DNA of 35,049 bases from Halothiobacillus sp. (GCA_018623495.1 JAAZVP010000025.1:1-35049); one strand, 5' to 3'; shown: positions 29,298 to 34,866, numbered from the stretch's first letter. Notes: generated by a model from the sequence alone, not told the origin. Program-made: numbers and translations.

Positions 29298-29391
29298 GGG
29301 TCTCGATCCGGCGGGCGTTGGATAACTGATTGACATTACACGAAATCGACACGCCGGGGAAGGATTCGTTCCCCCGCCCCGGGCATGGGGA

Positions 29392-29397
29392 TATAAT
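29392..29397 (+). promoter_or_regulatory. Consensus -10 (TATAAT) upstream of the oxygenase gene
   Basis: A perfect TATAAT in the 197-bp divergent interval between mnmG and the oxygenase gene. No good -35 in front of it. The predicted transcript would have a leader of about 90 bases before ATG 29495. Confidence 0.45.
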
Positions 29398-29494
29398 CGC
29401 TGCCGATCCGGTCCCAGGATCGAAACCTGCCGCCGTGCCGTCCCCGGCACCCGGTCCCGTCGCCCCGGCGACACGCTTTTCCGGAATACCGACA

Positions 29495-30142
29495 ATGGAA
29501 GCCATCATCGATCCCGCCCCCGGGGCGGACCCGGCCGCGGTGGTCGACGCCCTCTTCGAGCGCGGCTGGTTCGTGGGCCCGGGTTTCGTCCCGGCCGCGC
29601 TCTGCCGGACACTCCTGGCCGAGGTGGAGTCCGCCGACGCCCGCGGCGAGCTGCAGCGTGCCGGCATCGGCCGCGGCAGCGAGCACACCGTGGCCGAGAC
29701 CGTGCGCGGCGACCGCACCCGCTGGCTGCGTGCCGACTCCGCGCCGCAACTGGCCTTCCTCGAGCGCATGGAATCCCTGCGCCTGGCCATCAACCGGCAG
29801 CTGATGCTGGGGCTGTTCGACTACGAGGCCCACTTCGCCCTCTACCCGCCCGGCAGCTTCTACAAGCGCCACCTGGACAGCTTCCGCGGCAGCAACGCCC
29901 GGGTGGTGACCACGGTGGTCTACCTGACGCCGGACTGGCGCGCGGAGGACGGCGGCGAGCTGGTGCTCTACGACCCGGACGACGGCCGGCCGATGGCCGA
30001 GGTCCGGCCGCGGGCGGGCACGCTGGTGAGTTTTTTCAGCGAGCGGATCCCCCACGAGGTGCGTCCCACCCGCCGGGCCCGGGCGAGCATCGCCGGCTGG
30101 TTCCGGCGCAATCCCGCCGGCCTGCCCGACCCGGCCCGCTGA
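29495..30142 (+). CDS. 2-oxoglutarate/Fe(II)-dependent oxygenase (prolyl-4-hydroxylase-like)
   Basis: 215-aa enzyme that would couple oxidative decarboxylation of 2-oxoglutarate to hydroxylation of an unknown substrate. The iron triad is visible: His126 and Asp128 in [11 protein letters not shown], and His187 in ERIPHEVRP, with Arg196 in RARASIAGW as the 2-oxoglutarate carboxylate ligand. [19 protein letters not shown] is the typical central strand region. ATG 29495 is chosen because the family fold starts just after it; the open frame from 29330 is Pro-rich and includes the promoter. Convergent with the CocE-like gene, 3 bp apart. It could act on a protein such as a ribosomal or elongation factor, but nothing here shows that. 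Confidence 0.88.
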
Positions 30143-30145
30143 TCC

Positions 30146-32170
30146 TCAGACCAGGTCGCGGGGAATGCTCACGTCCCAGTTGTCGGCATACACCCGGCGG
30201 TCGCCCTCGTAGGCATCCAGCTCGGCGTGGATGTGGAAGGCCTCGGGGCTGGAGGTGAGCACGGTGCGGGTGACCGTGCGCACCCGCCAGTTGCCGCGCC
30301 GGTAGCCCCGCTCCCAGAGGGTCTCGCCGCGCGGCGAGTGGTAGTCGTAGCCGCGGTAGGAGTACCACTCGCGGGCGGCGCGCTGCATCTCCAGGTCCAC
30401 CGGGCCCAGGTGGACCGTGCCGTCGTCGTTGATCACCTCCAGGGTGGACTCGTCGGTCTCCAGGTCGCGGATCACCCGCCACTTGTGCTCGCCCGCCTGC
30501 AGCCGCTCGGTGGGCGTGGGCCGGGCGCCTTCCGCCGGGGCGAAGCCGATGGTCTGGTCCTCGGCGTCGCGCCGGGGCCGCTCGGGCAGCACCAGCCGCG
30601 AGGTCCCGGTGAAGACCGTCAGCCGGACCGGCTCCGGCGCGGGCCAGGCCAGGGGAAAATAGGAGGTGGAGATGGACAGGCGCAGCCGGTTGCCCTCGGG
30701 GAAGGCATGGGCGATGTCGTTGAGCTCGACGGTCACCCGGTAGCGCTTGCCCGGCTCCAGCGGTTCGGGGTGCTCCGAGCTGTCGCGGTGGGTGAGGTTG
30801 AGCAGGCCGTAGGTCACCCGGGTGGCCTTGTCGTCGGGGGCGACGTCGGAGATCCGCACCGCCACCATGGCCACCGGCCGGTCGGCGGCCACCTCCAGCT
30901 CCAGGCGCGCGGCCCCGAGGATCTCCATCGGCGCCTCCAGGGGCTCGCTGTCGAAGACCAGGGCCCCGCCGTCCTCCTCGCGCTGGTCGTGGGGCAGGTC
31001 GGGGGTGGCGGCGTAGGAACACCACTTGCCCGCGAACAGCCCCACCGAAAGCGGTGACTGGTTGGTCATGATCGCCTCGCCCACTGCCTGCCCCGCGGGC
31101 TCCAGCGTGCCCGGGCTGGCCAGCGTCAGGGCGCGCTCGCGGATGTTGGGCGAGGGCCATTCCGGCTCGCCCACCCAGCGGCCCGGCCGCTCGCTGTAGA
31201 AGGTGGTGGGCGGCATGTGGTCCTGCATCCAGGCCCGCAGCATGGGCTCGTCCATGATCCCGGTCTCGCGATCCTTGAGCCAGTGGTCCCACCAGCGCAG
31301 GCACTCCTGGAGAAAGCCGACGGCCGGCCCCGGTACGCCCTGGTGGGGGTACTTGTGGCTCCAGGGACCCACCAGCCCCAGCCGGGGCACGCGCAGGTTG
31401 GCCATCAGCCGGAACACCGAGTTGGTATAGCCGTCGGCCCAGCCGGAGACCGCCATCACCGGGCACTGGATGGCATCCCAGTCCTCGCAGACCGAGCCGT
31501 GCTGCCAGTACGCGTCCCGGCGCTGGTGGCGCAGCCACTTCTCCAGCCACAGGCCGCTGCCCCGGAGGCGGTCGAACCACATCTCCCGCCAGCGCTCGCC
31601 GACGACCTCCGGGTCCGGCGGCAGGGAGTTGAAGGCGAACATGGTGGAGGCCCAGGAGAGGTTGTCCCCCAGCAGGCAGCCGCCCATGTGGTGGACGTCG
31701 TCGGCGTAGCGGTCGTCGGTGGAGGCCACGCTGACCACCGCCTGCAGGCCCGGCGGGCGCAGGGCGGCGATCTGCAGGCCGTTGAAGCCGCCCCAGGAGA
31801 TGCCGATCATGCCCACCCGGCCGCTGCACCAGTCCTGGCCGGCGAGCCAGCGGATGATTTCCACGCCGTCGTCGAGCTCCTGCTGGAGGTACTCGTCCTC
31901 CAGCACGCCCTCGGAATCGCCGCTGCCGCGCAGGTCCACCCGCACGCAGGCGTAGCCGTGGGCGGCGAACCAGGGGTGCATGACGTCGTCGCGGGGGCGG
32001 GTGTTGTCCCGCCGGCGGTAGGGGATGTATTCCAGGATCGCCGGCACCGGCTCGGCCTCGGCGTCTTCCGGCAGCCAGATGCGCGCGGCCAGCCGGGTGC
32101 CGTCGCTCAGGGGTATCCAGCAGTGCTCGATCTCGCGCACCGGGCGCGGCAGGGGATCGACGATCTTCAC
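30146..32170 (-). CDS. CocE/NonD-family alpha/beta hydrolase (X-Pro dipeptidyl-peptidase S15-like)
   Basis: Serine hydrolase of 674 aa acting on an ester or amide/peptide bond. The N-terminal alpha/beta-hydrolase has Ser125 in GISWGGFNG, Asp246 in GWADGYTN and His272 in GPWSHKYPH; ILEYIPYRRRD near 45-55 supplies the oxyanion region. The C-terminal third (from about 430) is the jelly-roll X-Pro peptidase domain (LELEVAADRPVAMVAVRISD). No signal peptide, so it should be cytoplasmic. Start is GTG 32170, with AGGAGG six bases upstream; the open frame beyond is a shadow of the ATP-grasp gene. It lies 43 bp after two ATP-grasp genes and is probably co-transcribed, so it may cleave or trim the product they make. 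Confidence 0.9.
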   Translation of the reverse strand: MKIVDPLPRPVREIEHCWIPLSDGTRLAARIWLPEDAEAEPVPAILEYIPYRRRDNTRPRDDVMHPWFAAHGYACVRVDLRGSGDSEGVLEDEYLQQELDDGVEIIRWLAGQDWCSGRVGMIGISWGGFNGLQIAALRPPGLQAVVSVASTDDRYADDVHHMGGCLLGDNLSWASTMFAFNSLPPDPEVVGERWREMWFDRLRGSGLWLEKWLRHQRRDAYWQHGSVCEDWDAIQCPVMAVSGWADGYTNSVFRLMANLRVPRLGLVGPWSHKYPHQGVPGPAVGFLQECLRWWDHWLKDRETGIMDEPMLRAWMQDHMPPTTFYSERPGRWVGEPEWPSPNIRERALTLASPGTLEPAGQAVGEAIMTNQSPLSVGLFAGKWCSYAATPDLPHDQREEDGGALVFDSEPLEAPMEILGAARLELEVAADRPVAMVAVRISDVAPDDKATRVTYGLLNLTHRDSSEHPEPLEPGKRYRVTVELNDIAHAFPEGNRLRLSISTSYFPLAWPAPEPVRLTVFTGTSRLVLPERPRRDAEDQTIGFAPAEGARPTPTERLQAGEHKWRVIRDLETDESTLEVINDDGTVHLGPVDLEMQRAAREWYSYRGYDYHSPRGETLWERGYRRGNWRVRTVTRTVLTSSPEAFHIHAELDAYEGDRRVYADNWDVSIPRDLV

Positions 32171-32213
32171 GGCATGCCTCCTGTGGACGCAAACATCAGC
32201 GATGCACGGCGGC

Positions 32214-33506
32214 TCAGCCCGCCGGCGGTCGGAACTCCAGCCCCAGGCCCTCCAGGCAGCGCCGGTACCGGGCCTCCAGGTCCTCGGTATCGCGGCCACC
32301 GACGAACACCGTGGCCACCTCGAAACTGTAGCTGTCCTGGTCGCGCAGCGCGGAGAGGCGTTGCCCCTCGCGCACGTGCAGCCGGATCCGGCTGCCGGGC
32401 ACCGCGCGTTCCAGCGCCCGGATCGCGTCGGCGTCGGGCACCCCCACGACCCGCGCGTCGGCATAGCGACGGACCATGAACTTGGCCGCCACCGCGTGCT
32501 CGCCCTCTCCCCGCGGCATGGCGGGGTCTTCGCCCAGGGCGCAGGCCAGCATCACGTGGTAGTGGCTGATGCCGTCCACCATCTCGAACAGCGGGGCTTG
32601 GGACCGGGACAGGCGGGTGTTGATCTCCAGCAGGCGGAGCCGGTCGCTGTCGGGGTCCCAGTAGAACTCGATGTTGAAGGGCCCGTCGGCATAACCGATG
32701 TGGCCCATGACCCGGGCGGCGACGGCCCGGATCCGTTCGGCCACCGCCCCCGGCAACCGCGAGGGGTACTGGTAGCGGGAAAAGGTGGAGCCGGCCGGCC
32801 CCTCGCGCAGCGAATCCACCAGCCCGTAGCCGACCACCTCGCCGCGATGGACGTAGCCCTCCAGCGTGCACTGGTGGCCGGCGGAGATCAGCCCCTCGAC
32901 GATGCAGTGGTAGCCGTCCACCGCGGCCACCTCCCGGGGCAGCCGGGCGAAACCCGAGAGGTAGTTGAACGGCTCGGCGAAGCGACCGATGCCGGCCCGG
33001 ATGCGCTCCAGGGCGGCCTGCAACCCCGCGGCATCGGCGACCCGGAAGCCCATGTCGGAGAGCACCGACTTGACCGGCTTGATCCAGAAGGGGAAGTCGA
33101 TCACCAACGCCTCGATGCTGGCGGGATCGAAGGGATCCACGGCCTGGAAGGCGGGAATGCACTCCGGGATCACCGCCTGCTGCTCTAGGCGCGACCAGTA
33201 CTTGTGCTCGCACTTGAGCACCGCCTCCAGCGACGGCCCGGGCAGGCCGGCATCGCGGCGGATGATCGGCAGCGACGTGCTCACCGGGAAATCCCAGTAG
33301 CCCACCACCGCGTCCACGGAGCCGGGGAAGGCCTGCAGGCGTTCGCGGGCCTCGCGCAGCAGCCGGCGCACCGGGAAGACGTCCCGGTGGCGGACCTCGT
33401 CGGCGGTGAACAGGGCGTGGAAGGCGAGCCCGCCCGCCTCCGGCAGCCGCTCCAGCAGGTCGCGGTCGGAGTCGTCGAGGCCGACGACGAAGACGTTGCG
33501 GGTCAT
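32214..33506 (-). CDS. ATP-grasp ligase, second of a tandem paralogous pair
   Basis: 430-aa protein of the ATP-grasp superfamily (carboxylate plus ATP plus amine or thiol, via acyl-phosphate). Lys143 in DFPFWIKP, Glu280 in FNIEFYWD and Glu294/Asn296 in LLEINTRLS mark the ATP/Mg2+ site. An N-terminal Rossmann-like pre-ATP domain starts NVFVVGLDDSDRD, and a C-terminal domain (about 340-430) ends DSYSFEVATVFVGGRD. It is similar along its full length to the upstream gene product, with key residues at identical positions. Its ATG overlaps the upstream stop (ATGA at 33503-33506). Substrate not recognisable; the acceptor-side residues differ between the two copies (for example SVLSDMGF here against IGFSSQMV upstream). 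Confidence 0.85.
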   Translation of the reverse strand: MTRNVFVVGLDDSDRDLLERLPEAGGLAFHALFTADEVRHRDVFPVRRLLREARERLQAFPGSVDAVVGYWDFPVSTSLPIIRRDAGLPGPSLEAVLKCEHKYWSRLEQQAVIPECIPAFQAVDPFDPASIEALVIDFPFWIKPVKSVLSDMGFRVADAAGLQAALERIRAGIGRFAEPFNYLSGFARLPREVAAVDGYHCIVEGLISAGHQCTLEGYVHRGEVVGYGLVDSLREGPAGSTFSRYQYPSRLPGAVAERIRAVAARVMGHIGYADGPFNIEFYWDPDSDRLRLLEINTRLSRSQAPLFEMVDGISHYHVMLACALGEDPAMPRGEGEHAVAAKFMVRRYADARVVGVPDADAIRALERAVPGSRIRLHVREGQRLSALRDQDSYSFEVATVFVGGRDTEDLEARYRRCLEGLGLEFRPPAG

Positions 33507-34804
33507 CCGTCCCCGCTCCCGGCCGGCGCGAACTCCAGCGGCAGTCGCTCCACCACCTCCCGGTAGCGGGCCTCCAGCTCGTGGCGGTCCTGTCCGCCCA
33601 TGAAGATGACCGCCACCTCGAAGCTGTACACCTCTTGGCCGCGCAGCTCGGAGAGCCGGTCGCCCTCCTCGATCTCCACCTGGATGCGGGTGCCGGGAAA
33701 GGCCGACTCCAGTTCGCGGATCTCCTCGCGGGTGGGCACGCGGGTGACGATGCCGTCCTCGAAACGCCGCAGCATGAACTTGGTGGAGACGTTGTAGCGA
33801 CCCTCCCAGCGGGGGAAGTCCGGCCGGCGCCCGAGGGCCACGTCGATGGCGACCTCGTGGTGGGAGGCGCCGCAGACGTCGGCGAACAGCGGCGAGTGGG
33901 ACTTGGAGATGCGGGTGTTCACCTCCAGCAGCCAGATGTGGTCGGCCTGCTGGTCCCAGAAGAACTCGATGTTGAAGGGCGTCTCCTCCAGGCCCAGTAC
34001 CAGCACCGTGCGGCGGGCGATCTCGGCCATGCGCTCGCGCACCGACTCGGGCAGGCGCGAGGGAAACTCGTAGCGGGCGAAGGAGGAACGCAGGGCCCCT
34101 TCGCGGATGGAGTCCACGACCCCGTAGATGACCGGCTCGCCCTGCTGGACGAAGCCCTCCAGGGTGCACTGCCAGCCGCCGATGGGCTTTTCCAGCACGC
34201 AGTGGTGGGCATCGATCCCGGCCGGGATGTCGCGCGGCAGCTCGGCCCGCTCCATGAAGCGGGCGAAGGGATCGCCGAACCGGCCGATGCCCTGGCGGAT
34301 GCCGGCCAGCGCGTCGTGGAGCTCCCAGGAGTCACTCACGTGGTAGACCATCTGCGAGGAAAACCCGATGTTGGGCTTGATCCAGAAGGGAAAATCCATC
34401 TCCACCCTGGCCTCGGCCCGGGGATCGAAGGGGTCGAGGCTCTGGAAATCGGGGATGTTCTCGGGGATCGCCTTGGCCTGGCGCAGCCGGGCCCAGTACT
34501 TGTGGTCGGCGATCAGGGTAGCCGCCAGGCTCGGCCCGGGAAGGCCGAGGTCCCGGCGAAAGACCGCCAGCAGAGCGGTGGTGGGAAAGTCCCAGTGGCC
34601 GATGATGGCATCCACCGAGACGCCGCTGGCGCGCAGCTCCTCCCGGCCCTGCTCGATCATCTCGTCGACCGGGTAGCTCTCGGGGTTGACCACCATGTCG
34701 AAGGGCAGCAGGCCGTGAAAGGCATAGCCCTCGGCGTTGCGGATGGTCCGGAGCTGGGCGAGGTTGAATTCGTCCAGGCCGATGATGAACACGTTCGTGG
34801 TCAT
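33503..34804 (-). CDS. ATP-grasp ligase, first of a tandem paralogous pair
   Basis: 433-aa ATP-grasp protein. Lys143 in DFPFWIKPN, Glu280 in FNIEFFWD and Glu294/Asn296 in LLEVNTRIS mark the nucleotide/Mg2+ site; GWQCTLEGFVQQGEPVIYGV lies in the region that in biotin-carboxylase- and amino-acid-ligase-like members forms the lid strands. Begins NVFIIGLDEFNLAQL, a GLD-type N-terminal strand. GGAGG five bases before the ATG. It overlaps the second ligase gene by four bases, so equimolar synthesis and a hetero-oligomer are possible. Automatic tools often label such proteins biotin carboxylase, but there is no biotin carrier protein or carboxyltransferase nearby. The repeat element lies 103 bp upstream. 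Confidence 0.85.
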   Translation of the reverse strand: MTTNVFIIGLDEFNLAQLRTIRNAEGYAFHGLLPFDMVVNPESYPVDEMIEQGREELRASGVSVDAIIGHWDFPTTALLAVFRRDLGLPGPSLAATLIADHKYWARLRQAKAIPENIPDFQSLDPFDPRAEARVEMDFPFWIKPNIGFSSQMVYHVSDSWELHDALAGIRQGIGRFGDPFARFMERAELPRDIPAGIDAHHCVLEKPIGGWQCTLEGFVQQGEPVIYGVVDSIREGALRSSFARYEFPSRLPESVRERMAEIARRTVLVLGLEETPFNIEFFWDQQADHIWLLEVNTRISKSHSPLFADVCGASHHEVAIDVALGRRPDFPRWEGRYNVSTKFMLRRFEDGIVTRVPTREEIRELESAFPGTRIQVEIEEGDRLSELRGQEVYSFEVAVIFMGGQDRHELEARYREVVERLPLEFAPAGSGDG

Positions 34805-34866
34805 GACTGCCTCCCGCGACTGGGTCGGTCGGGGCGGCGAAGGAAACAGCGACCGCCCCAGCCCCG

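Follow-up and report, generated by a model that had tools for sequence, protein, structure and literature searches.

The conserved element at this locus of Halothiobacillus sp. is a two-gene unit in which a gene for a CocE/NonD hydrolase follows one for an ATP-grasp ligase, and not the tandem ligase pair found in the window (the whole stretch of DNA analyzed, 35,049 nucleotides, which is an entire contig of a 2.46-Mb assembly and covers only 245 bp upstream of the first ligase gene, AG1). Computation established the order of the genes, their conservation and joint inheritance, the folds and active-site residues of the proteins, and an association with osmolyte-making genomes. The best explanation, to which we give a rough probability of 0.45, is that a small metabolite of amide or peptide-like kind is synthesized by the ligase and degraded by the hydrolase, and that it serves in salt adaptation, perhaps as a compatible solute not described before. 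Current thinking credits salt-adapted bacteria with only a few compatible solutes; the pair is a tangible candidate for a solute pathway that this list lacks.

Two ATP-grasp genes and one CocE/NonD hydrolase gene were confirmed as coding, all on the minus strand (Table 1), with the positions and lengths given in a preliminary description of this DNA. The ligases had been described there as similar throughout and as carrying Lys143, Glu280, Glu294 and Asn296 at the same numbers in both; the residues are as described, and in an alignment of 428 columns with two gaps the proteins are 50% identical. The overlap of 4 bp between the ligase genes and the spacing of 43 bp from the AG2 stop to the CocE start also hold at the sequence level, and translational coupling of AG1 and AG2 through the overlap is likely. 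The GTG start of CocE is supported by a ribosome-binding site in front of it. A scan of the region for promoters and terminators gave no signal exceeding chance. A convergent gene for a 2OG-Fe(II) oxygenase (29330-30142) was left out of the parts.

Table 1. Features of the ligase-hydrolase locus, in coordinates of the window.
Feature	Coordinates	Strand	Remarks
AG1	33503..34804	-	433 aa; ATP-grasp ligase, L-amino-acid-ligase-like; probable old partner of the CocE gene
AG2	32214..33506	-	430 aa; second ATP-grasp ligase; belongs to a different clade than AG1; probable insertion between AG1 and CocE
CocE/NonD serine hydrolase	30146..32170	-	674 aa; GTG start; Peptidase_S15 and PepX_C domains; S125/D246/H272
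ATGA stop/start overlap of AG1 and AG2	33503..33506	-	junction reads ggATGAcc
AG1 ribosome-binding site GGGAGG	34810..34815	-	5 nt ahead of ATG
CocE ribosome-binding site AGGAGG	32177..32182	-	ahead of the GTG start

A scan with one genome per species yielded at least 570 ligase relatives, of which the best 80 loci were retained, and further loci came from class- and phylum-wide draws. Ligase genes with at least 1 kb of downstream sequence were counted, 115 in total, a sample rich in Halomonas whose members are not independent phylogenetically: CocE lies directly downstream on the same strand in 84 of them and within about 5 kb in 14 more, while about 15% have no CocE nearby. The earlier suggestion that ligase and hydrolase form a functional unit is thus borne out. 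The preliminary description had also made its reading depend on the three genes occurring together elsewhere; for the exact trio this did not hold, since it is rare, while ligase and hydrolase are commonly found together. The unit was seen in Pseudomonadota, Thermodesulfobacteriota, Nitrospirota and one actinobacterial metagenome-assembled genome (MAG), and, provided that the MAG bins are reliable, in five phyla. Beyond CocE, no gene general to the neighborhoods was found among the loci compared; hydrogenase and DctQM clusters beside units of Thioalkalivibrio and Nitrosomonas were set aside as synteny among relatives.

Pairwise identities of ligases and hydrolases correlate strongly (Mantel r 0.89, 58 pairs), a result that shared ancestry alone could yield. 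Unrelated hosts also cluster alike in the ligase and CocE trees (e.g. loci L096/L097, L075/L100 and L058/L079); such groups crossing taxonomy place a Nitrosomonas MAG beside Nitrospirales, Thioalkalivibrio XN8 beside alphaproteobacteria, and the actinobacterial MAG beside Lamprobacter. Since the same host groups recur in both trees, the ligase-CocE pair looks like a cassette that has been transferred as a whole.

The unit usually has a single ligase. Apart from the window, ligases paired on one strand were found only at L093, in a Balneolales MAG, and at L137, where the duplicate is partly decayed, so that an obligate ligase pair was rejected; a need for two ligases, as implied in the preliminary description, is not supported. 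The trees suggest how the pair in the window arose. AG1 forms a clade with ligases of Halothiobacillus and Microbulbifer sediminum (support 100/100), and the window CocE forms one with the CocE proteins of these two and of genome G362 (100/100); the Halothiobacillus, Microbulbifer sediminum and G362 loci in these comparisons have one ligase each. AG2 falls with ligases of Thioalkalivibrio, Ectothiorhodospira and Lamprobacter (100/98). Because AG1 and CocE group with the same hosts and AG2 groups elsewhere, AG1 and CocE appear to be the old pair, and AG2, coming from another clade, was probably inserted between them later. In-situ tandem duplication was rejected, as the two copies fall in separate, well supported clades. 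The two ligases may give two products. No further ligase of this family was found in the strain's own genome beyond the pair in the window.

AG1 scores 51.6 bits against PF13535 ATP-grasp_4 (cut-off 27). AG2 is slightly below this threshold (24.4 vs 27) and scores 33 bits against PF02786 CPSase_L_D2 (cut-off 19.8). No NCBIfam equivalog fits either protein, and our searches turned up neither a characterised family nor a known substrate for them. The ATP/Mg residues K143, E280, E294, N296 and R298 are invariant in a 55-member alignment that includes AG1 and AG2, and by these residues both ligases look intact. A structure model of AG1 (pLDDT 96) has an amino-acid-ligase-like fold, which supports the idea of a peptide-like product in the preliminary description: in a Foldseek search BacD was the top match by E-value (1e-23), BL00235 had the highest TM-score among the PDB matches listed (0.73/0.76), and L-amino acid ligases took ranks 1, 2 and 5 with TM-scores of 0.67-0.73. 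AG1 has the ATP-grasp architecture of BacD/YwfE (3vmm, 3wo1), BL00235 (3vot) and RizA (4wd3), but identity to these enzymes is only 14-17%, the genomic setting differs and no NCBIfam model fits. It is quite likely that the ligase forms an amide or peptide bond.

The profile of the 55 ligases also matched urea carboxylase and carbamoyl-phosphate synthetase, in addition to BL00235, in a sequence search. Biotin carboxylase and urea carboxylase share the E-x-N-x-R motif and C-terminal similarity with the window ligases. In biotin carboxylases the Glu of the QVEH motif is the catalytic base. QVEH of urea carboxylase aligns with SKSH in the ligase family, no member shown in the alignment has Glu at this position, and a biotin carrier or carboxyltransferase partner was not seen. 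Bicarbonate carboxylation of the biotin-carboxylase type is therefore disfavored.

The hydrolase scores 237 bits against TIGR00976 CocE_NonD (cut-off 66.3), a family of cocaine esterase, alpha-amino acid ester hydrolase and X-Pro dipeptidyl-peptidase with which it shares the catalytic and PepX_C domains, the triad and the fold (TM 0.65/0.75 of the model to cocaine esterase). Against the PRK05371 Xaa-Pro dipeptidyl-peptidase models it reaches 103 bits, far from the cut-off of 642. The triad, assigned correctly in the preliminary description, is invariant among 30 CocE relatives. Unlike characterised CocE/NonD enzymes, the window protein has an extra all-beta C-terminal region of about 130 residues without a Pfam match and is operonic with an ATP-grasp ligase. 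No signal peptide was evident on inspection by eye, and the enzyme should therefore work in the cytoplasm. The bond that it cuts could be an ester, as CocE-fold enzymes hydrolyze esters too.

Relatives of this hydrolase on alphaproteobacterial plasmids have equal length and 43-54% identity. An SBP_bac_5 binding protein, two permeases and one or more ATPases adjoin them in all seven annotated plasmid records that were opened. A Dpp/Opp-type importer next to CocE is the layout expected where a small peptide-like compound is taken up and hydrolyzed, and it suggests the substrate class of the halophile CocE; conversely, the unit supplies a substrate hypothesis for these plasmid operons. Plasmid-borne relatives of the ligase (31-38% identity) form a distant branch without CocE.

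The named carriers, which include Halomonas, Thioalkalivibrio, Ectothiorhodospira, Halorhodospira, Wenzhouxiangella and Nitrosomonas marina, are halophilic, haloalkaliphilic or marine, in a sample selected for resemblance to a query sequence that itself comes from an ectoine producer. We searched 369 gammaproteobacterial genomes for the ligase, ectoine synthase (EctC) and glycine/sarcosine N-methyltransferase. At least one osmolyte marker was found in 12 of the 15 genomes with a close ligase, in 9 of 11 families, and in 57 of the 354 others (odds ratio 21, p = 2e-7); with the strain's own genome left out, the figure is 11 of 14 carriers (p = 1e-6). The halophile link drawn in the preliminary description was thus upheld. 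A close ligase occurs in only 12 of the 69 osmolyte-making genomes of the sample; since most makers are without it, the ligase marks a subset of them and is no universal osmolyte gene. One operon (L065) contains genes for glycine methyltransferase and sarcosine/dimethylglycine methyltransferase, ProVWX, the ligase and CocE in full, and the methyltransferase and ProVWX set recurs upstream of ligase-CocE at L006/L125, which are from one genome or near-identical genomes. On a separate contig of the strain's own genome lie ectA, then ectB, then ectC, the first two identified by eye, and the strain therefore very likely makes ectoine. A role of the unit in salt adaptation is likely. That the product is itself a compatible solute has somewhat less than even odds; the salt link of the carriers is no proof of it.

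What follows is our inference as to the reaction, the type of substrate, the direction in which the hydrolase works and the role as a solute. The ligase would activate a carboxylate with ATP, as an acyl-phosphate judging from its fold class, and would join it to an amine, giving a small peptide-like or amide compound. This compound would accumulate in salt; in the simplest case it would be a compatible solute kept together with ectoine or glycine betaine. When salt falls, cytoplasmic CocE would cut the bond made by the ligase and the pool would be turned over or recycled. In the window, AG2 would add a second or altered product. A wider form of this proposal is a pathway that makes and recycles compatible solutes of a new amide or peptide class, possibly based on diamino acids, ectoine or betaine, a pathway which spread as a cassette through halophiles of several phyla and whose product alphaproteobacteria scavenge through Dpp-type importers and related CocE enzymes. 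This is a speculative picture, and we consider it rather unlikely in its entirety.

Genes near some of the units point to other substrates. The ligase could modify or store a known solute or precursor, such as ectoine, N-gamma-acetyl-diaminobutyrate, glycine betaine or another diamino-acid derivative. Such a compound would be linked through its carboxylate to an amine and set free again by CocE. This possibility draws on a convergent fusion protein of five genomes in two genera that combines a ligase of the family with an ectoine-synthase-like domain; all five genomes have a set of ligase, CocE and M20 deacylase, directly adjacent in four. Glu-57, Tyr-84 and His-92 are the iron ligands of ectoine synthase (PMC6344544). 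The fused domain keeps W21, R25, T40, Y52, E57 and the Tyr ligand; except at position 38, the residues reported to bind N-gamma-acetyl-diaminobutyrate (PMC6344544) are conserved. It lacks the third ligand, having Ile or Val for His in 5/5 fusions, so that the full set of three iron ligands expected of an ectoine synthase is absent. Replacement of this ligand makes cyclizing activity doubtful, and the domain may bind rather than cyclize, judging from these residues. ArgE/DapE-type M20 deacylase and GNAT genes recur near units, as in Ectothiorhodospiraceae clusters, where they and a Ddl-like ATP-grasp gene stand beside the unit, and an aspartokinase-like gene (read by eye) follows one Halomonas ligase. 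However, the fusion is limited to one family, EctC is absent from about half of the close carriers and most units have no ect gene nearby, and we regard modification of a known solute as unlikely. A class-III aminotransferase beside Halomonas units was rejected as ectB, as its cluster mixes families; by eye the Halomonas members resemble bioA of a biotin operon, indicating local synteny. Another possibility is a link to cyanophycin, in which the ligase would take Asp/Arg-type (iso)dipeptides, or the amino acids that they contain, as substrates of a nitrogen or amino-acid storage system. Genes for cyanophycinase, cyanophycin synthetase and isoaspartyl dipeptidase lie upstream of ligase-CocE in three genomes of the same family as the fusions (G370, G379 and G380), as a cphB-cphA-iadA-ligase-CocE-M20 run that is split over contigs in G380, and cphB/cphA are near the ligase in three Thermodesulfobacteriota loci. 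Yet CphA was found in only 3 of the 15 close carriers, all of one family, and is absent from the strain's own genome, and most loci have no cph gene; cyanophycin was rejected as a general setting and is an improbable one for the ligase. Metabolites common to these neighborhoods are diamino acids and small carboxylates, which is a hint at the substrate, not evidence.

BacD being the closest solved fold by E-value, the product could also be a bacilysin-like dipeptide secondary metabolite with the hydrolase serving self-protection or processing. This seems very improbable: the pair is not accompanied by an exporter, tailoring genes or a regulator, and its salt association and strong conservation over phyla better fit housekeeping or stress metabolism. 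Other ATP-grasp ligases, RimK and Ddl, are known to modify macromolecules, and the Ddl-like gene of some Ectothiorhodospiraceae clusters would suit a ligase acting on a protein tail or cell-wall peptide that CocE trims. No cell-wall or acceptor-protein gene recurs, however, and the small-peptide importers beside the alphaproteobacterial CocE relatives point to small substrates; this is the least probable of the readings.

If the preferred reading of synthesis by the ligase and breakdown by CocE is right, the unit resembles the osmolyte system for N-acetylglutaminylglutamine amide (NAGGN), in which an ATP-grasp ligase makes a peptide-like solute that a partnered peptidase can degrade. The NAGGN gene set comprises an ATP-grasp/GNAT synthetase (TIGR03103), AsnO and an M42 peptidase. 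In contrast, the window ligases have no TIGR03103 match among NCBIfam hits at E <= 1, no AsnO or M42 partner was seen with the conserved unit, and its hydrolase is a CocE serine enzyme. We found no description of the ligase-CocE pair in the open-access literature; subscription journals could hold one. According to a 2005 review, enzymes for neutral dipeptide and derivatised amino-acid solutes were then unexplored (PMC1224877), and the pair may bear on such peptide- and amide-type solutes. An enzyme for carbamoyl-glutamine amide was not found in the literature searched. Ligase-CocE is present in Ectothiorhodospira haloalkaliphila (L064); the halophile amide solute of that review was reported from one phototroph, whereas the pair is widespread. 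The NAGGN synthetase has been modelled since the review appeared (TIGR03103).

Genes for cyanophycinase and cyanophycin synthetase adjoin the ATP-grasp ligase in two phyla, and gammaproteobacterial loci of this kind also carry isoaspartyl dipeptidase, the serine hydrolase CocE and an M20 deacylase. The fusion of the ligase with an ectoine-synthase-like domain is conserved in five genomes, with Ile or Val replacing the third iron-ligating His of that domain. At L131, same-strand genes following the fusion resemble, by eye, a hydroxamate siderophore cluster.

Features of the window and of related loci
Feature	Position	Strand	Remarks
Cyanophycinase and cyanophycin synthetase genes adjoining ligase	L191 2465-11903; L192 2072-11432; L195		Also L088, L089, L099
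Ectoine-synthase-like domain fused to ATP-grasp ligase	L131 11053-12807	(-)	Also L191, L192, L193, L194
2OG-Fe(II) oxygenase	window 29330-30142	(+)	PF13640
Aspartokinase-like gene	L092 11372-12682	(+)	Judged by eye
Distant ligase relative	L019 7737-9080; L020 5689-8564		34-38%; conjugative Sphingobium/Sphingomonas plasmids

On alphaproteobacterial plasmids (L165-L170, L172), CocE relatives are adjoined by a Dpp/Opp-type ABC importer, usually accompanied by a LysR or other regulator; these CocE-importer sets likely represent scavenging operons. A D-Ala-D-Ala-ligase-like ATP-grasp gene recurs next to CocE genes or to their M20 neighbour in Ectothiorhodospiraceae and relatives (L033, L037, L044, L074, L127) and is possibly a second type of ligase. 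A second Halomonas ligase (L092), which lacks CocE, lies 55 bp upstream of its aspartokinase-like neighbour.

Vitamin-K-epoxide-reductase-family and RND efflux genes adjoin the distant ligase relative on these plasmids, and in L020 it is interrupted by an IS3 element. In the window, the oxygenase gene and CocE are convergent, with 3 bp between their stop codons; a TTG start is listed for the oxygenase, and the true start may be further downstream.
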